From contig JALSRN010000063.1 in NCBI GenBank assembly GCA_026984735.1, positions 1 through 42,552 of the forward strand: a stretch of 42,552 bases of DNA, given 5' to 3'. The position numbers were made by a program, and so were the translations under genes. The stretch's first letter is position 1, and every line of letters starts with the position of its first letter. Below the pieces are notes generated by a model. It was given only the letters and a program-made list of their open reading frames with translations, was not told the DNA's origin and did no database searches. Origin of the DNA: Sedimenticola sp. (GTDB lineage Bacteria; Pseudomonadota; Gammaproteobacteria; Chromatiales; Chromatiaceae). This document shows, one piece after another, positions 1-34,446 of this stretch.

Positions 1-40
1 CGTCGGTTTCGATGGTCTGGCCGTTCACTTCGTAAGGCAT
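1..40 (-). CDS. DsrC/TusE-family sulfur carrier protein, N-terminus only (cut by window edge)
   Basis: The minus strand from 40 to 1 starts with ATG and encodes 13 residues, MPYEVNGQTIETD. These match, residue by residue or conservatively, the start of the dsrC product encoded at 5861 (MPIEVNGKTLETD). An AGGAGG lies at 47-52 on this strand, six bases before the ATG, so the start is well supported. DsrC/TusE proteins are small swinging-arm carriers that hold sulfur on C-terminal cysteines. TusE-type members serve tRNA 2-thiouridine synthesis and DsrC-type members serve DsrAB. The decisive C-terminal cysteines lie outside the window, so subtype cannot be told. It is the last visible gene of the unit starting at 1744, about 100 bases downstream of the Cas6-like gene. 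Confidence 0.8.
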   Translation of the reverse strand, partial: MPYEVNGQTIETD

Positions 41-142
41 GCTGCACCTCCTGTGGGAAATTCAGAACGCCGCGGGATTTTACACCGAAATTTTCCCCCG
101 GTTTTTCCGGGGCGGTGGAGGGTTTTTCCCCGGCCGGCGGGC

Positions 143-832
143 TCAGTCGGCCGCAAGGTGCTGGATCCCTTTCATGGGCAGGAAGAGGCCGCAGCCGAGA
201 TGGCGGTGGCCGCCCACCCCCTCTTCCTGGAGCCGCAGAGAGTCGGTGGGCGAGAGGTCGGCCAGCATCAGGCTGCGGGTGACGAGGGGACCGTCGGGAG
301 TGGCGATCTCCGTGGTCTTGCCGCAGAGCGCCTTCTTGACGTGGATTCGGCGCTCTTTCAGTTCGGCGGCGATGCGTCGCAGAAAACGGTTCTCGTCCTC
401 CGCCTCTCCCTCGCCCATGCGCATGTGGCGCGCGTAGAGGGTGGGGTGGCTGAACAGCGGCTTCTCGCGCGCTTTGCCCAGGGTGAGGGAGTAGCCGTCG
501 AGGTCCAGGCGCGCGCCGCTCAGCCGCTGGGCGATGGCGCCGGCCCGCGGACGGGGAACGCGCAGGTGCATACGGGCCCGGCGCGAAGGGATCAGGTGTT
601 GCCCCAGCGCTGGATCGGGACGCTCCCAGCCGTTCTGAGAGCCGGCGAGATGGATCTCATGGATGCCGATGCCCGACTCCACGAGATCCGGCAGCTCTGC
701 CGCCAGGGCCCGATAGAGCGCGTACAGATGATCCACCGGCAGCATGCGGCTGGTGAAGGTGAAGGCGAGGTCCACCACCTTCTCCGACTGCTCGGGGAGT
801 TCGCTGCCCTCCTGTTCCTCTTCCCACAACAT
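143..832 (-). CDS. Stand-alone Cas6/Cmx6-like RAMP protein, 229 aa
   Basis: The product resembles the Cas6/Cmx6 proteins annotated for type I-MYXAN CRISPR systems, which are crRNA-processing endoribonucleases with a ferredoxin-like RAMP fold. Visible signatures are the early PVDHLYALY segment (residues 32-40, with H35 as a candidate catalytic or structural His), an RRARMHLRVP strand (85-94), and the family's C-terminal block from DSLRLQEEG into a glycine-rich loop GVGGHRHLGCG (205-215), followed by LFLPMKG. The ATG at 832 is chosen because GGAGGAG sits five bases upstream; a GTG at 838 overlaps the previous stop but has no usable spacing to that site. It lies 2 bases after the 234-aa gene and about 100 bases before a DsrC/TusE gene. 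No repeat array or other cas gene is visible. The family call rests on remembered motifs; activity on RNA is inference. Confidence 0.72.
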   Translation of the reverse strand: MLWEEEQEGSELPEQSEKVVDLAFTFTSRMLPVDHLYALYRALAAELPDLVESGIGIHEIHLAGSQNGWERPDPALGQHLIPSRRARMHLRVPRPRAGAIAQRLSGARLDLDGYSLTLGKAREKPLFSHPTLYARHMRMGEGEAEDENRFLRRIAAELKERRIHVKKALCGKTTEIATPDGPLVTRSLMLADLSPTDSLRLQEEGVGGHRHLGCGLFLPMKGIQHLAAD

Positions 833-834
833 GG

Positions 835-1539
835 TCACTCCTCCGGCAACCGCGCCTGCAGCTCCTCCCGGTCGAACCACCAGTCGTCCTGCACCAGCAC
901 GTCCACGATGTTGCGCAGGCGCACCAGGAACTTGTCGGGCTGGTTCAGCTCCAGCTTGTCGATCCAGTAATCGAACTGTTGCTGACTTTCCACGCCGCTG
1001 TGGCGGCGGGCCACGTTGCCCAGCATCTGCTGGGTGAAGAAGAGAAGGTTTTCCCGTTCGTCTCCCTGGGCGCGCAGATCGGCGACGAAGGCCGCAGTGG
1101 CGGCGGCCACCGCGGCGCCGTCGGCGTCGGGGGGCGTGTCGTCGATGAAGTGCTGCAGCAGGGTGAGGGTCACCTGCGGTTCGACGGGATAGGTGACCGC
1201 CAGCCAGATGCCCTGCCCGAGGGCGGCCAGCGAACCGGGTTGGTCGGCCAGGTAGAGCGCCTCGCAGGCTTCGGCCGCCTGTTGCCACTGCTCGTTGGCC
1301 ACGAAATGGTCCAGCGCGGCGCGCGCCAGCGGCCACGCCTCTTCACCCCGCTCCAGCAGGGCCAGGTTGCGCGCCATCTCCAGCGCCAGAACATGGCGCT
1401 CGGGGTCCGTTTCGGCGAGGGCGTCGCGGCGCCGGCGCAGCTCCACCAGCTCTCCCTCCAGACGCGCCTTTTCGGCCGCCTCCTCCGCCGGAGAGACCGG
1501 CGCCACGTCGGGGTTCTGTCCCGGATCCAGAAAATCCAT
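835..1539 (-). CDS. Conserved-looking helical protein of unknown function, 234 aa
   Basis: I do not recognise a named family. The product is acidic, cytoplasmic in appearance (no signal peptide or membrane segment) and almost entirely helical. It has a charged coiled-coil-like start (residues about 17-50, rich in E, R and L) followed by TPR-like alanine-rich helices (about 52-125). The C-terminal part is aromatic and charged (FDYWIDKLEL, then DDWWFDREEL near the end). It begins 4 bases after the 66-aa gene stops and ends 2 bases before the Cas6-like ATG, so all three are surely co-transcribed. A role as a scaffold or partner of the Cas6-like and DsrC/TusE proteins is inference from the operon only. 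Confidence 0.75.
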   Translation of the reverse strand: MDFLDPGQNPDVAPVSPAEEAAEKARLEGELVELRRRRDALAETDPERHVLALEMARNLALLERGEEAWPLARAALDHFVANEQWQQAAEACEALYLADQPGSLAALGQGIWLAVTYPVEPQVTLTLLQHFIDDTPPDADGAAVAAATAAFVADLRAQGDERENLLFFTQQMLGNVARRHSGVESQQQFDYWIDKLELNQPDKFLVRLRNIVDVLVQDDWWFDREELQARLPEE

Positions 1540-1543
1540 GGCG

Positions 1544-1744
1544 CTACACCCGGCCGCAGAAGGCGGCCTCGATGCGGTCCTCCCAGTCTTCCGGCGTGTC
1601 GGGAAACTCCGGCTTCACGTCGGTCTTGAGAAAGCGTTCGCCGTGACGGGCGTATTCGCGGACCAGCTCCAGCAACTCTTCGAAGCTCTCCAGCTCATAG
1701 TTCGAGACCAGAATGTTGCTCAAGGCCAGGGGTTCGTCGTTCAT
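1544..1744 (-). CDS. Small acidic protein of unknown function, 66 aa
   Basis: First gene of the minus-strand unit leading to the Cas6-like and DsrC/TusE genes. The ATG at 1744 has a GGAG nine bases upstream. The product is acidic and probably helical (SFEELLELVREYARHGERF in the middle), with one cysteine four residues from the C-terminus (C63 in FCGRV). No known domain is recognised. The 4-base gap to the next gene and the matching GC-rich codon use support a real gene. A CATAAT hexamer on this strand at 1786-1781 could be its -10 box; the FNR box at 1795-1808 would then overlap its -35 region, which would suggest repression rather than activation. Confidence 0.65.
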   Translation of the reverse strand: MNDEPLALSNILVSNYELESFEELLELVREYARHGERFLKTDVKPEFPDTPEDWEDRIEAAFCGRV

Positions 1745-1794
1745 CGTCTTCGTGCTCCAGCTCGGGGCTCGTGCCTCAAGATTATGAGGGTCAT

Positions 1795-1808
1795 TTGATT
1801 CAGATCAA
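1795..1808. promoter_or_regulatory. Perfect FNR/Anr-type binding site
   Basis: TTGATTCAGATCAA is an exact match to the FNR/Anr/CRP-family consensus TTGAT-N4-ATCAA. Its centre (1801.5) is about 61 bases upstream of the start predicted from the sigma-70 promoter at 1826-1855, the classic class I activator distance for FNR. It also lies about 51 bases upstream of the divergent minus-strand unit. Oxygen-responsive control of the dsr operon is inference; no fnr or anr gene is in the window. Confidence 0.7.
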
Positions 1809-1825
1809 CACCTTTCGTATGGCGG

Positions 1826-1855
1826 TTGACAGGGGCGTGGCCCCTTGTCTAGGAT
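1826..1855 (+). promoter_or_regulatory. Sigma-70 promoter for the dsr operon
   Basis: A perfect TTGACA at 1826-1831 is followed after 18 bases by TAGGAT (1850-1855, four of six matches to the -10 consensus). The predicted start is near 1862, giving a leader of about 360 bases before dsrA. The spacer contains a short GGGGC/GCCCC palindrome (1832-1844). Confidence 0.6.
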
Positions 1856-1905
1856 CAGCCGCTAATTTTTTGCAGGATGAGTATACGCTAAACTACTGAT
1901 CCTGC
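1851..1905 (+). promoter_or_regulatory. Leader stem-loop with competing partners
   Basis: GCAGGAT (1872-1878) pairs with ATCCTGC (1899-1905). The stem continues after one G-G mismatch as AGTA/TACT (1880-1883 with 1894-1897), closing a 10-base loop. The same 3' arm is also complementary to AGGATCAG at 1851-1858 (with CTGATCCT at 1896-1903), so the two pairings exclude each other. No U-tract follows, so it is not a simple terminator. It may be an operator palindrome or a regulatory RNA structure. Confidence 0.45.
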
Positions 1906-1962
1906 GATCTCGACAAAAAAGCGCTTTGCGGTCAACGGTTTACGTTGTGCAGGGCGGAGCTT

Positions 1963-2048
1963 CCTTGGCCAAGGTTTCCGAAACCTATCCCAATGGGGAT
2001 AGATTGCGGGGAGAAAAATACCCCGGATGGCGGAGTGTAACCGCGGGG
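1963..2048 (+). promoter_or_regulatory. Array of consecutive palindromes in the dsr leader
   Basis: Three perfect palindromes or hairpins sit end to end, sharing one or two bases: CCTTGGCCAAGG (1963-1974), GGTTTCCGAAACC (1973-1985) and CTATCCCAATGGGGATAG (1985-2002). A fourth stem, CGGGG (2007-2011) with CCCCG (2021-2025), follows. The same CCCC can instead pair with GGGG at 2045-2048, supported by GCGG/CCGC (2030-2033 with 2041-2044). A further 10-bp palindrome AGCAGCTGCT is at 2065-2074. No ORF with convincing coding character lies here. The array suggests a structured 5' untranslated region or clustered operators; function unknown. Confidence 0.5.
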
Positions 2049-2220
2049 TTGCTCGGCTAGAGTTAGCAGCTGCTGGCGAAGCTGCGGGCCCCGGCCGGAC
2101 GGACGGCGGATTCCGCTTTCGTCAATGAGGAGTGACAACAGTTTCGGGCCGGCCCCTGCGGGCTCAGGGAACCGGCACTCGAGAGCACCGTATTTCACGA
2201 TCTAGTCAGGAGACTTCAAA

Positions 2221-3489
2221 ATGGCGATCGAAAAACACCATACCCCCATGATTGACCAGCTCGAGGACGGTCCTTGGCCGAGCTTCATCAAGGGCATCAA
2301 GCGCCTGCGCGACGAGCACCCCAGCGAGCGCATCAATGCCATGGCCAACGACCTGCTGGGTCAGCTGGAGACTTCCTACGAAACCCGTCTCGGCTATTGG
2401 AAAGGCGGCACCATCACCGTCTTCGGCTATGGCGGCGGCATCATTCCCCGCTTCAGCGAGCTGAAGGACGAGGAGGGCAACCCCCGCTTTCCCAAGTCTT
2501 CCGAATTCCACACCATGCGCATCCAGCCTCCTCCGGGCTTCTTCTACACCACCGACATTCTGCGCAAGATCATCGACATCGACGAGCGCCACGGTTCCGG
2601 CGTGATCTGCATGCACGGCCAGACCGGCAACCTGATGCTGGTGGGCATGTCTTCCGACGCCGTGCAACCCTGCTTCGACGAGATGAACGAACTGGGCTTC
2701 GACCTCGGTGGTGCCGGCCCTTGCGTGCGCACCGGCATGTCCTGCGTTGGGGCCGCCCGTTGCGAGCACTCCAACATCGACGAGCACGCGGTGATGCGCA
2801 CCCTGCTGAACAACTTCCAGGACGACATGCACCGTCCGGCGCTGCCCTACAAGTTCAAGTTCAAGGTGAGCGGTTGCGCCAACGACTGCACCAACTCCAT
2901 CCAGCGCGCCGACATGGCCATCATCGGCACCTGGCGCGACGACATGAAGGTCGATCAGGAAGAGGTCAAGGCCTTCGTCGAGAAGAAGGGTCGCAAGTAC
3001 GTGATCGACAACGTCATCACCCGCTGCCCCACCAACGCCCTCACGCTGCATGACGACGACACCCTCGAGGTGAACAACAAGGACTGCGTGCGCTGCATGC
3101 ACTGCATCAACGTCATGACCAAGGCGCTTTCTCCGGGAGACGACAAGGGCTGCACCATCCTCATCGGCGGCAAGCGCACCCTGAAGATCGGCGACTTGTT
3201 CGGTACCGTGCTGGTGCCCTTCATGAAGGTCGAGACCGAAGAAGACCGTGAGAAGCTGGTGGAGCTGGCCGAGGAGATCATCGACTTCTTCGCCGAGAAC
3301 GCGCTTGAGCACGAGCGCACCGGCGAGATGATCGAGCGCATCGGCCTGGCCAACTTCCTCGAGGGCATCGGCGTGGACGTCGATCCCAACATGGTGGAGC
3401 GTCCGCGCACTTCCAGCTACGTCCGCATGGACGGCTGGGACGAGGAGGCCGCCAAGTGGGAAGAGCGCAAGAAGGCCGCGGCCAGCTGA
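2221..3489 (+). CDS. dsrA: Reverse dissimilatory sulfite reductase, alpha subunit
   Basis: DsrA pairs with DsrB in the cytoplasmic alpha2beta2 siroheme enzyme. In sulfur oxidisers it runs in the oxidative direction, turning DsrC-bound sulfur into sulfite. The 422-aa product shows the siroheme and [4Fe-4S] cysteines as C175-X5-C181 and C219-X3-C223. An inserted ferredoxin domain carries C269, C289, C292 and C295. The ATG has AGGAG seven bases upstream. It is the first gene of the operon, preceded by a leader of about 360 bases. The reverse (oxidative) type is inferred from the companion genes dsrEFH and dsrL, which belong to sulfur oxidisers. Very secure call. Confidence 0.97.
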   Translation: MAIEKHHTPMIDQLEDGPWPSFIKGIKRLRDEHPSERINAMANDLLGQLETSYETRLGYWKGGTITVFGYGGGIIPRFSELKDEEGNPRFPKSSEFHTMRIQPPPGFFYTTDILRKIIDIDERHGSGVICMHGQTGNLMLVGMSSDAVQPCFDEMNELGFDLGGAGPCVRTGMSCVGAARCEHSNIDEHAVMRTLLNNFQDDMHRPALPYKFKFKVSGCANDCTNSIQRADMAIIGTWRDDMKVDQEEVKAFVEKKGRKYVIDNVITRCPTNALTLHDDDTLEVNNKDCVRCMHCINVMTKALSPGDDKGCTILIGGKRTLKIGDLFGTVLVPFMKVETEEDREKLVELAEEIIDFFAENALEHERTGEMIERIGLANFLEGIGVDVDPNMVERPRTSSYVRMDGWDEEAAKWEERKKAAAS

Positions 3490-3513
3490 TTCCCGGCTCC
3501 AACCCCTGATCTG

Positions 3514-3540
3514 CCGGCCGCGGCCTTGCGCTGCGGCCGG
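3514..3540 (+). other. GC-rich intercistronic hairpin between dsrA and dsrB
   Basis: CCGGCCGC (3514-3521) is perfectly complementary to GCGGCCGG (3533-3540) around an 11-base loop. There is no U-run after it, so it is unlikely to terminate. A role in mRNA processing or protection of the dsrA 3' end is inference. Confidence 0.5.
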
Positions 3541-3580
3541 TCAAGGACACAGACGAATTTCAGAATTTTAGGAGGTACGC

Positions 3581-4654
3581 ATGTCCGATCAACCTCGCAT
3601 GCCCATTGAGTCCGGCACCCCGGACCATTTCCAGTACATGCATCCCACGCTGCGCAAGAACTACGGCCAGTGGGCCTACCACGACCGTCCGCGTCCCGGC
3701 GTGCTGCACCATGTCTCCAAGAACGGCGACGAGGTTTGGACGGTGAAAGCGGGTTCTCCCCGCCAGCTGGACATCCTGACGCTGCGCGAGATCTGCGACA
3801 TCGCCGACGAATTCTGCGACGGCTATCTGCGCTTCACCATGCGCGGCAACATGGAGTTCATGACCACCGACGCTTCCAAGGTGGACGCCCTCATCGAACG
3901 CCTGGAGAGCTCCGGCTTCCCCGTGGGCGGCACCGGCAACTCGGTGACCATGCTCTCCCACACCCAGGGTTGGTTCCATTGCGACATCCCCGGCACCGAC
4001 GCCTCGGGCGTGGTGAAGGCGATGATGGACGAGCTCTACGAAGAGTTCAAAAACGAGGAGATGCCCAACCGGGTGCACATCACCACCTCCTGCTGCCAGA
4101 TCAACTGCGGCGGCCAGGGCGACATCGCCATCAACGTGCAGCACACCAAGCCGCCGAAGATCAACCACGATCTGGTGGCCAACGCCTGCGAACGTCCGGC
4201 AGTGGTGGCCCGTTGCCCGGTGGCGGCCATCCGCCCCGCCATGGTGAACGGCAAGCCCACCCTGGAGGTGGACGAGAAGAAGTGCGTCTGCTGCGGCGCC
4301 TGCTTCCCGCCCTGCCCGCCGATGCAGATCAACGACGCCGAATACACCCGGTTGTCGATCTGGGTGGGCGGCAAGCACTCCAACGCCCGTTCCAAGCCCA
4401 TGTTCCACAAGCTGGTGGCTTCCAACATCCCCAACAACGCGCCCCGCTGGCCGGAAGTGGCGGCCATCGTCAAGAAGATCCTCCGCGCCTACAAAGAGAA
4501 CGCCAAGGAGTGGGAGCGCATGGGCGAGTGGGTCGAGCGCATCGGCTGGAAGCGGTTCTTCGAGCTCACCGATCTGCCGTTCACCAAGTATCACATCGAC
4601 AACTGGCGCGGCAGCCGCAACAACCTGAACCAGTCTGCGCACATCCGCTTCTGA
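3581..4654 (+). CDS. dsrB: Reverse dissimilatory sulfite reductase, beta subunit
   Basis: Partner of DsrA; the beta subunit carries the catalytically active siroheme in characterised enzymes. The 357-aa product has the expected length. Its siroheme-region cysteines are visible as C171, C172 and C176 (SCCQINCGG). A ferredoxin-type set follows: C212 (RCPVAAI) and C235-X2-C238-X2-C241, with an extra C245. The start has AGGAGG shortly upstream (3569-3577 region). It follows dsrA after 91 bases that hold a GC-rich hairpin, and dsrE follows after 23 bases. Confidence 0.97.
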   Translation: MSDQPRMPIESGTPDHFQYMHPTLRKNYGQWAYHDRPRPGVLHHVSKNGDEVWTVKAGSPRQLDILTLREICDIADEFCDGYLRFTMRGNMEFMTTDASKVDALIERLESSGFPVGGTGNSVTMLSHTQGWFHCDIPGTDASGVVKAMMDELYEEFKNEEMPNRVHITTSCCQINCGGQGDIAINVQHTKPPKINHDLVANACERPAVVARCPVAAIRPAMVNGKPTLEVDEKKCVCCGACFPPCPPMQINDAEYTRLSIWVGGKHSNARSKPMFHKLVASNIPNNAPRWPEVAAIVKKILRAYKENAKEWERMGEWVERIGWKRFFELTDLPFTKYHIDNWRGSRNNLNQSAHIRF

Positions 4655-4677: not shown

Positions 4678-5070
4678 ATGAAATTCGCGATTCAGGTAAA
4701 CGAAGGCCCCTACCAGCATCAGGCCTCCGACTCCGCCTACCACTTCACCAAGGCGGCGCTGGAGAAGGGGCACGAGTGTTTTCGTGTCTTCTTCTACCAC
4801 GACGGCGTGCTCAACGGCACCCGTCTGACCACACCGCCCCAGGACGATCGCAACATCGTCAACAACTGGGTGGAGCTGGCCGAGAAGTACGACCTCGACT
4901 TGGTGGTCTGCGTGGCCGCGGCCCAGCGCCGCGGCATCGTGGACGAGGGCGAGGCCGAGCGCAACGGAAAGGATGCCACCAACATCGCTCCCCGTTTCCG
5001 AATCTCCGGGCTCGGGCAGCTGATCGAGGCGGCGATCCAGTGCGACAAGCTGGTCGTGTTCGGCGATTAA
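4678..5070 (+). CDS. dsrE: DsrE, sulfurtransferase subunit of DsrEFH
   Basis: DsrE, DsrF and DsrH form the cytoplasmic alpha2beta2gamma2 complex that hands sulfur to DsrC and is homologous to TusBCD of E. coli. This 130-aa product carries the conserved persulfide cysteine at position 78 (LDLVVCVAA), the same position as the active Cys78 of A. vinosum DsrE. The fold family is DsrE/DsrF-like. It sits directly after dsrB and 12 bases before the dsrF ATG. The presence of dsrEFH marks the oxidative, not sulfate-reducing, version of the pathway. Confidence 0.96.
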   Translation: MKFAIQVNEGPYQHQASDSAYHFTKAALEKGHECFRVFFYHDGVLNGTRLTTPPQDDRNIVNNWVELAEKYDLDLVVCVAAAQRRGIVDEGEAERNGKDATNIAPRFRISGLGQLIEAAIQCDKLVVFGD

Positions 5071-5082
5071 GGAGGGTTGACC

Positions 5083-5490
5083 ATGTCCGACAAGAAACAG
5101 TTCATGTTCCTCAATCGCCGTGCGCCCTACGGCACCATCTATGCCTGGGAATCCCTGGAGGTGGTGCTCATCGCGGCGGCCTTCGAACAGGCGGTGAGCC
5201 TCGCCTTCATCGACGACGGCGTCTATCAGCTCGTGACCGGGCAGGATACCACCGGCATCGGCATGAAGAACTTCTCGCCCACCTACAAGACCCTCGGCGA
5301 CTACGAGGTGCGTCACATGTACGTGGACAAGGAGTCGCTGGAGGCGCGCGGCCTGACCGCGGACGACCTGGTGGTGGTTCCCTGGGAAGACTGGGAGACC
5401 GAAGAGACGGTGGACAACATCGTGGAAGTGGTGGACTCCGATCAGCTCGCCGAGCTCATCGAACAGTCCGACGTGGTATTCAGCTTCTGA
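5083..5490 (+). CDS. dsrF: DsrF, subunit of DsrEFH
   Basis: A 135-aa DsrE/DsrF-like protein homologous to TusC. It contains no cysteine at all, fitting a structural rather than sulfur-carrying role within the DsrEFH hexamer. The ATG at 5083 is preferred over an in-frame TTG at 5077 because GGAGG at 5071-5075 is spaced seven bases from the ATG. It is separated by 10 bases from dsrH. Confidence 0.95.
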   Translation: MSDKKQFMFLNRRAPYGTIYAWESLEVVLIAAAFEQAVSLAFIDDGVYQLVTGQDTTGIGMKNFSPTYKTLGDYEVRHMYVDKESLEARGLTADDLVVVPWEDWETEETVDNIVEVVDSDQLAELIEQSDVVFSF

Positions 5491-5500
5491 GGAGAGAAAG

Positions 5501-5809
5501 ATGAGCGATCTGCACACCGTGAACAAATCTCCGTTCGAGAAGAACTCCCTGGATACCTGCCTGCGGCTGTCCAAGGCCGGCTCTTCGATCCTGCTTTACG
5601 AAGACGGTGTCTATGCCGCCCTGGCGGGCACCGCCGCTTCCGGCAAGATCGCCGGGGCCCTGGCGGACCGCAAGGTGTATGTGCTGGAGCCCGACTATCG
5701 TGCCCGCGGCCTGAAGAGCGACCGTCTCATCGAGGGTGTGGAGATGGTGGACTACGCCGGTTTCGTGGACCTGGTGGAGAGCTGCGACAAGGTCCAGGCG
5801 TGGGTCTGA
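5501..5809 (+). CDS. dsrH: DsrH, subunit of DsrEFH
   Basis: A 102-aa TusB-like protein and the third member of the DsrEFH sulfurtransferase. A cysteine at position 20 (SLDTCLRLS) matches the conserved Cys20 of A. vinosum DsrH; another, C95, lies near the C-terminus. A GAGGAGAG site precedes the ATG. It lies between dsrF and dsrC as in the canonical operon. Confidence 0.95.
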   Translation: MSDLHTVNKSPFEKNSLDTCLRLSKAGSSILLYEDGVYAALAGTAASGKIAGALADRKVYVLEPDYRARGLKSDRLIEGVEMVDYAGFVDLVESCDKVQAWV

Positions 5810-5860: not shown

Positions 5861-6193
5861 ATGCCTATCGAAGTGAATGGTAAGACCCTGGAGACCGACG
5901 AGGAAGGTTACCTGGTGAATCTGGACGACTGGGAGCCCGCCGTGGCCGAGGCCATGGCCAAGGAAGACGACCTGGAGCTCACCGACGAGCATTGGGAGAT
6001 CATCAACTTCCTGCGCGAGTACTACGAGGAGTACCAGATCGCTCCCGCCGTGCGCGTGCTCACCAAGGCCGTGGGCAAGCGTCTGGGCAAGGAGAAGGGC
6101 AACAGCAAGTACCTGTACGGTCTCTTCCCCTACGGTCCCGGCAAGCAGGCCTGCCGCTATGCCGGCCTTCCCAAGCCCACCGGTTGCGTCTGA
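5861..6193 (+). CDS. dsrC: DsrC, sulfur-carrying substrate protein of DsrAB
   Basis: DsrC presents sulfur on its flexible C-terminal arm to DsrAB and then to the DsrMKJOP membrane complex. The 110-aa product ends in the diagnostic arm with two cysteines, C98 (KQACRYAG) and penultimate C109 (PTGCV). This marks a true DsrC rather than a single-cysteine TusE. The start MPIEVNG is shared with the truncated paralogue at 40-1. The ATG follows AGGAGAGAG. It is separated from dsrH by 51 bases. Confidence 0.97.
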   Translation: MPIEVNGKTLETDEEGYLVNLDDWEPAVAEAMAKEDDLELTDEHWEIINFLREYYEEYQIAPAVRVLTKAVGKRLGKEKGNSKYLYGLFPYGPGKQACRYAGLPKPTGCV

Positions 6194-34369: not shown

Positions 34370-34446
34370 TGGCCCGCCCCAGAGGATTCGAACCTCTGAC
34401 CTCAGCCTCCGGAGGGCTGCGCTCTATCCAGCTGAGCTAGGGGCGG
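34370..34446 (-). tRNA. tRNA-Arg (anticodon CCG)
   Basis: The minus strand folds as a full 77-base cloverleaf: acceptor CCGCCCC/GGGGCGG, D arm GCTC/GAGC, anticodon stem CAGCC/GGCTG with loop CTCCGGA (anticodon CCG), a five-base variable loop, T arm AGAGG/CCTCT with loop TTCGAAT, discriminator G and an encoded CCA (34372-34370). A T-run follows directly after CCA. It lies between ccdA and the SYLF gene on the opposite strand. Confidence 0.96.

Follow-up and report, generated by a model that had tools for sequence, protein, structure and literature searches.

A Cas6-family protein encoded beside dsr genes and its tie to reverse-Dsr sulfur oxidation in Gammaproteobacteria

The DNA analysed here, hereafter the window, is an entire contig of a Sedimenticola sp. 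genome (JALSRN010000063.1, or G000:C63; 42,552 bases), and at its edge a gene for a Cas6-family protein, here called Cas6L, lies in a minus-strand operon of the order p66, p234, Cas6L and DsrC-like gene, divergent from dsrABEFHC and truncated at its downstream end by the contig edge. On balance, we favour the reading that Cas6L belongs to a branch of Cas6 which departed from CRISPR and was taken up, in Gammaproteobacteria, as a functional part of reverse-Dsr sulfur oxidation. Profile and fold place the protein in the Cas6 family; its branch is separate in the tree, its operon is conserved, it pairs almost one to one with dsrA and shows no association with cas1, its His35 is invariant and its DsrC-like partner has lost both arm cysteines. 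The co-occurrence argues strongly for a role in sulfur oxidation. The Cas6 family itself is known, and we class Cas6L as a variant within it that is not tied to CRISPR; NCBI's own model would label the gene a CRISPR protein, yet the gene pairs with dsrA. If this reading is correct, a component of the reverse-Dsr pathway has gone unnoticed in purple sulfur bacteria and in chemosynthetic symbionts, and the Cas6 fold is at work beyond CRISPR and transposons.

Cas6L as a member of the Cas6 family

A sequence-only reading of the window had taken the 229-residue product for a Cas6-like protein with a candidate His35 and a loop running from G205 to G215, and profiles, fold and residue conservation all agree with it. 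In searches with hidden Markov models, the protein exceeds the curated cut-off of NCBIfam TIGR02807 cas6_cmx6 (102.4 bits; cut-off 98.85) and matches Pfam PF09559 Cas6 (E 2.8e-56, 191 bits; cut-off 26.7) and PADLOC Cas6 (E 2.3e-53). The nearest solved relative by sequence is 8fcj_B, the Cas6 of a type I-B CRISPR-associated transposon (CAST), at E 2.7e-12 and 26% identity, and the same structure is the best Foldseek hit of the AlphaFold2 (AF2) model of Cas6L (predicted local distance difference test, pLDDT, 88.1; E 2.3e-15, template modelling score, TM, 0.73); 3pkm, a Cas6 with RNA, is also found (E 3.5e-6). Thus, profile and fold both give Cas6 and not an unrelated fold.

Within an alignment of 97 core Cas6L rows and eight CRISPR/plasmid rows, the His35 of the PxDH motif is kept in 97/97 and 8/8, respectively; in the glycine-rich segment of the core rows, G207 and G213 are kept in 97/97, G205 in 94/97 and G215 in 95/97. 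His35 stands directly before the first helix (residues 36-46) of the model, its active-site position being assigned by alignment only; a passage of PMC3652601 places the active-site His of Cas6e and Cas6f within the first helix. Moreover, fourteen residues (H58, A63, S65, G68, W69, R71, P72, R85, R135, E147, K167, G171, R186 and K221) are found in 97/97 core rows and differ or are absent in the eight CRISPR/plasmid rows. Half of these are basic (H58, R71, R85, R135, K167, R186 and K221), and W69, R71 and P72 fall in an insert that 8/8 CRISPR/plasmid rows lack. In a tree of the same 105 rows, which is unrooted, a single branch with support 100/98 splits the core Cas6L rows from the CRISPR/plasmid rows.

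Pairing of Cas6L with dsrA

Because counts with PF09559 take in true CRISPR Cas6 proteins, the test across the class used a profile built from 26 core Cas6L sequences. Among 369 gammaproteobacterial genomes, Cas6L was found in 118 and dsrA in 119; both occur in 111, Cas6L only in 7, dsrA only in 8 and neither in 243 (odds ratio 482, p 7e-75). In the order sample of 195 genomes, PF09559 matches 176, with a single match in 166 of those; a genome was scored as dsr-bearing when it matched the dsrA model at E 1e-20 or better, which G033, G137, G161 and G171 do only at dsrB-like strength. Here PF09559 goes with dsr (both 173, PF09559 only 3, dsr only 4, neither 15; p 3e-16) and shows no association with cas1 (both 116, PF09559 only 60, cas1 only 10, neither 9; p 0.31). 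The sequence-only reading had suggested a possible link to tRNA thiolation; the co-occurrence instead indicates reverse-Dsr sulfur oxidation.

Exceptions to the pairing number 22 in both samples together, and 13 were opened. Ten of them have a contig edge where the partner would be, or less than 0.7 kb left: the contig stops past p66 or within p234 in G083, G152 and G317; less than 0.7 kb remains upstream of dsrA in G188, G400, G304 and G264; and G321, G379 and G261 have Cas6L together with p66 and the Cys-less DsrC on contigs that stop in or just past a dioxygenase gene, before the expected dsrA. In 82 of the 111 genomes with both genes, Cas6L lies less than 10 kb from dsrA on the same contig (median gap 1,660 bases); in the remaining 29 the two are far apart on one contig (2) or on separate contigs (27), some of these cases being contig breaks. 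When 18 of the 29 were opened, p66 adjoined Cas6L in 10 and the Cys-less DsrC in 8. Since module partners are often missing at unlinked loci, Cas6L itself is the steady element. Ten neighbouring proteins, scanned around five Cas6L genes that stand without partners, shared no theme (RNase III, a thioredoxin-like protein, SpoU methylase, glycosyltransferases, a nucleotidyltransferase, a PF04143 sulphur transport protein, 5'-nucleotidase, an M23 peptidase and one protein without a match). In two genomes of 1.4-1.5 Mb (L177, L186) Cas6L stands alone, apart from dsr; at L186 an RNase III gene runs divergently from it and a thioredoxin-like gene is next to it.

Cas6L is also retained in five genomes of 1.0-1.1 Mb (G233, G335, G447, G479 and G542), which have no Cas1 or Cas3-HD match. 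In a phylum-wide sample it occurs in 1/200 genomes, the window's own; the dsr content of that sample was not scored, and it is thus silent on dsr-bearing Alphaproteobacteria, as it is on other phyla such as Chlorobi.

Operon partners and CRISPR genes

Neighbours were counted in the named loci, the best 80 of 484 relatives, using those with enough flank; they include Allochromatium, Thiocapsa, Thiocystis, Halochromatium, Thiohalocapsa, Solemya gill symbionts and Thiothrix. In three Allochromatium species, A. vinosum not among them, Cas6L adjoins the dsr genes. At the named loci p66 accompanies Cas6L in 76/79, p234 in 72/79, the Cys-less DsrC in 56/72 and a divergent dsrA in 58/63. The survey bears out the proposal that this Cas6-family protein is an orphan outside CRISPR, its operon with a DsrC/TusE paralogue being conserved, and it shows a stronger linkage than had been claimed; the open reading frames that flank Cas6L, for the 234-residue protein and for the paralogue, are real, although the window holds only the beginning of the latter (Table 1). 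The model of p234 consists of helical hairpins (pLDDT 93.8); its best Foldseek hit is to the tetratricopeptide repeats (TPRs) of kinesin light chain at E 0.024, none of the fold matches reaching E 0.001.

Table 1. Features of the Cas6L and dsr operons in the window
Feature	Positions	Strand	Basis or remark
DsrC-like gene, Cys-less in relatives, first 13 codons only	2..40	-	Sequence; contig end cuts gene
Spacer between Cas6L and DsrC-like gene	41..142	-	6-bp GC hairpin; folding no better than shuffles (z -0.3)
Cas6L, 229 aa, Cas6 family	143..832	-	Candidate catalytic His35; branch-specific loop 63-72 AGSQNGWERP
p234, 234 aa, all-helical, TPR-like by model	835..1539	-	No Pfam/NCBIfam match above cut-off
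p66, 66 aa, small acidic protein	1544..1744	-	No Pfam/NCBIfam match; commonest neighbour of Cas6L
Divergent intergenic region, Cas6L operon and dsr operon	1745..2220		Sequence, open reading frame list
dsrA	2221..3489	+	TIGR02064, 575.6 bits
dsrA-dsrB spacer with 12-bp GC-rich hairpin, candidate RNA target	3490..3580	+	Fold z -2.0
dsrB	3581..4654	+	TIGR02066, 519 bits
dsrE, dsrF, dsrH	4678..5809	+	Pfam DsrE, DsrE, DsrH
dsrC proper, both C-terminal cysteines present	5861..6193	+	TIGR03342, PF04358, sequence

The DsrC-like partner is in relatives 41-52% identical to the window's DsrC. The count took in every DsrC-like gene lying up to 2.5 kb downstream of Cas6L, which gave 123 complete copies (62 in the named set; loci overlap). 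None of the 123 has a Cys within the last 25 residues, both arm cysteines being gone, and 122 have the tail RKGGY, the copy at L093 ending early. The loss is established on relatives, the window copy being cut; its near relatives L053-L055 end RKGGY. With no Cys in that tail, the partner cannot carry sulfur as TusE/DsrC do, and the sulfur-carrier logic on which the tRNA-thiolation proposal had been built falls. The penultimate Cys is described as strictly conserved in DsrC in a passage on A. vinosum (PMC3397948), and an account of the Solemya velum symbiont mentions dsrC homologues outside the dsr operon that lack both cysteines, as well as two TauD homologues, left unconnected in the part of the source considered here (PMC4287430). 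Since Cys-less DsrCs were already known, what seems to be new is their partnership with Cas6L. We take these proteins to match the RspA type, a name for which our literature search gave no confirming paper.

In 26 of the 74 named loci with sufficient flank (for example, L068:8119-9027), the gene immediately upstream of p66, and on its strand, encodes a TauD-family dioxygenase (PF02668, HTD...H motif); three genomes of 1.0-1.1 Mb (L179-L181) likewise have this dioxygenase gene beside the module. Its nearest named relatives are TmpA (6npb) and gamma-butyrobetaine dioxygenase, and it scores far under the curated cut-offs of these enzymes. The dioxygenase relative in the window's genome is unlinked (G000:C17:14848-15705) and lies near an apparent periplasmic nitrate reductase gene, named by eye. 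A phage search with the Cys-less DsrC as query returned five records at 31-44% identity, three of them annotated TusE, compared by identity and not by tails. SUP05 phage contigs are reported, in a passage of PMC4164917, to carry dsrC-like genes and a 2-oxoglutarate (2OG)-Fe(II) oxygenase together, the same two kinds of gene as in the Cas6L module.

No CRISPR-like array was found in the 42,552 bases of the window, no Cas1 and no second PF09559 match in its genome, and no Cas3 match on its contig, although not all window open reading frames were run against cas models. The absence of CRISPR and cas genes asserted by the sequence-only reading thus stands for these, and does not extend to the whole genome, which has the cut cas3 considered below. 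As a control, 80 of the 118 Cas6L genomes were searched for Cas1 and Cas3-HD, three small genomes being included by choice: Cas1 is present in 33, Cas3-HD above its cut-off in 24, and neither in 46 (43/77 once the three chosen genomes are dropped). Of the 33 Cas1-positive genomes, 29 carry Cas1 on a different contig from Cas6L and four carry it at a distance of 248 kb or more, although the contigs might still abut; in 80/80 genomes, Cas1 is thus absent, on a separate contig or distant. More than one PF09559 match occurs in 10 order genomes, and five second copies that were fetched are 29-33% identical to Cas6L, have no p66 or p234 and all (5/5) lie less than 9 kb from Cas1. Cyanobacterial plasmid relatives (L162, L163) sit within complete I-MYXAN cas operons. 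On another plasmid, pGMOR1 of Gloeobacter morelensis (L164), a Cas6/Cmx6 gene has no annotated cas gene within 9 kb, and its neighbours are two PAPS (3'-phosphoadenosine-5'-phosphosulfate)-reductase-family genes along with DNA methyltransferases, so that Cas6 may have a further role outside CRISPR here. An IMG/VR viral contig (L203) holds one 28% relative of Cas6L. A scan of 133 loci of at least 5 kb for arrays gave only one three-copy hit (L194), a weak negative because the method detected an array in only 1/9 control loci (1/7 with a cas operon or nearby Cas1). The hit, L194:14598-14706, consists of three evenly spaced repeat copies near the stretch end, about 7 kb from a partnerless Cas6L, and is perhaps an array edge. 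Cascade-like modules without CRISPR arrays are mentioned in a passage of PMC3150331.

Possible function, alternatives and known systems

Family membership and the conserved residues make it moderately probable that Cas6L still binds RNA, and probably cleaves it, via the Cas6 active site. Whether its substrate would be one conserved cellular RNA and not varied repeats we regard as an even question: the basic and loop residues stay the same in widely differing hosts, which suggests a single substrate, since CRISPR Cas6s follow changing repeats. Spacers were folded at 40 of the 80 named loci (every second), and stems were sought in 66 dereplicated dsrA-dsrB spacers. The dsrA-dsrB spacer folds with a median z of -2.4 (n=32); a stem of at least 8 bp is present in 43/66 spacers, and in 24/66 no more than 1/50 shuffles were as good. 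The 100 nt 3' of the DsrC-like gene also fold (median z -2.3, 18/30 below -2) and contain T-runs as in terminators. The spacers between Cas6L and the DsrC-like gene showed nothing consistent (6/28 below z -2). Enriched 7/8-mers were discarded as RNA target motifs, as by eye they resemble ribosome-binding and promoter sites.

In our view, the likeliest mechanism is that Cas6L binds a single cellular RNA required for sulfur oxidation and cuts it. That this RNA is the dsr mRNA, so that the module would tune dsr expression, is a guess to which we attach limited credence; the dsrA-dsrB hairpin would suit a Cas6 target, the Cys-less DsrC might be a regulatory mimic of DsrC, p234 a scaffold and p66 a small partner, and the 2OG/Fe(II) dioxygenase of many lineages could act as a sensor that reports oxygen or 2-oxoglutarate. 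More doubtful still is the most complete scheme, a one-time gammaproteobacterial domestication of a CRISPR RNA-processing protein that would have yielded a post-transcriptional controller needed for lithotrophic sulfur oxidation, a five-gene module acting on a conserved RNA, probably in the dsr mRNA, and gated by a Cys-less DsrC decoy and often by a 2-oxoglutarate/oxygen-dependent dioxygenase.

Several observations weigh against a Cas6 branch recruited to sulfur oxidation, or against its proposed action on RNA. The window's genome does contain the start of a Cas3, HD plus helicase, on L165 (G000:C74:3-1229, minus strand; TIGR01596, 112.5 bits, cut-off 43.45), cut by a contig edge and unlinked to Cas6L; among the 80 genomes, it is the only one with Cas3 and without Cas1. 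The co-occurrence tests count genomes as independent, without a species tree. Three of the 13 opened exceptions have no contig-edge explanation: in G005 the dioxygenase gene adjoins dsrA and no p66 is found in the 1.7 kb beyond the dioxygenase, G546 has 1.75 kb without p66, and G404 has 7.8 kb without Cas6L. The Cys-less DsrC is not beside Cas6L in 16/72 named loci, and of the 18 unlinked Cas6L genes that were opened, 7 stand without any module partner. The activity of Cas6L is predicted only; the residue aligned to its His35 in the solved CAST Cas6 is Asn, and a crenarchaeal Cas6 is functional without the His, the authors remarking, in a passage of PMC3652601, that Cas6 enzymes can be seen as RNA chaperones as much as enzymes, so that His35 is no proof of cutting. 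Loop 63-67 is modelled at low confidence, which might also fit a loop ordered by its ligand. The dsrA-dsrB hairpin is absent from the 54-nt spacers of Allochromatium despite the presence of Cas6L, and its sequence varies while the GC-rich stem persists; it is, therefore, only a candidate target, and several Cas6L bearers lack it. Lastly, the stretches of 150 nt that precede p66 and dsrA showed no folded element (median z 0.0 for p66 and -0.5 for dsrA).

Cas6L could also have lost its RNA function and be a structural or assembly factor for the cytoplasmic Dsr enzymes; it would then bind DsrAB or the Cys-less DsrC on a scaffold formed by the TPR-like protein. Invariant residues could serve protein binding, Cas6L is partnered by a DsrC mimic and a TPR-like protein, and the link to the pathway holds even where the genes are unlinked; however, a purely structural role would need neither a His35 kept in every core row nor the glycine-rich segment (94-97/97), and some Cas6L genes do not have p234 or the Cys-less DsrC next to them; we think this explanation unlikely. 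Less probable again is a RAMP (repeat-associated mysterious protein) acting in tRNA processing or modification and coupled to sulfur or dioxygenase chemistry: a universal substrate would account for the frozen residues, and a TauD-family dioxygenase is often in the operon, but the DsrC-like partner has no arm cysteine for sulfur carriage, the only Rfam match of the window, a tRNA at 34373-34446, is far from the operon, and it would be unexplained why only dsr-bearing bacteria need Cas6L.

We disfavour, as very improbable, a Cas6L acting in trans on CRISPR arrays located elsewhere in the genome. The unlinked Cas3 start and a score above the cut-off of the I-MYXAN Cas6 model speak for such a role, but 46/80 Cas6L genomes (43/77) have neither Cas1 nor Cas3-HD above cut-off, the order sample shows no cas1 association, Cas1 where present lies on a different contig or 248 kb or more from Cas6L, and it is the divergent second PF09559 copies, 5/5 of those fetched, that lie near Cas1. 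Scarcely any weight goes to neutral hitch-hiking with the dsr cluster, by shared inheritance or transfer and without shared function. Most copies do lie near dsrA (82/111) and related genomes share history, which tests without a species tree do not remove; yet 29/111 lack a dsrA within 10 kb on the same contig (contig breaks in part), the gene is kept in the five 1.0-1.1 Mb genomes, and its residues are strongly conserved. Recruitment of a Cas6 branch to reverse-Dsr sulfur oxidation thus remains the reading that we prefer.

In the open-licence PMC literature we found no paper that recognisably reports a protein of Cas6 type encoded at a dsr locus, and no account of the reverse-Dsr tie of Cas6L, its branch-specific residues, its Cys-less DsrC partner or the five-gene module. 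To our knowledge, the module as a whole, its function being predicted, resembles no known system. With the Cas6 of type I CRISPR systems (TIGR02807, I-MYXAN Cas6/Cmx6; PF09559), Cas6L shares profile, fold, the PxDH His35 and the Gly-rich C-terminal segment, but it goes with dsr and not cas genes, has 14 invariant residues of its own, three in an insert of its own, and is separate in the tree. The Cas6 of type I-B CAST (8fcj_B) is the closest solved structure by both sequence and fold; in contrast to Cas6L, to which it is 26% identical, it has Asn at the His35 position and is part of a transposon-associated Cascade. Compared with DsrC/TusE (TIGR03342), the operon partner retains 41-52% identity to DsrC but has lost the arm cysteines and ends in RKGGY. 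Finally, the dioxygenase has the PF02668 profile and HTD...H motif of the TauD/TfdA Fe(II)/2OG dioxygenases, whereas it scores far under the curated cut-offs of the named enzymes and, unlike them, heads the Cas6L operon in many relatives, although it is unlinked in the window's genome.

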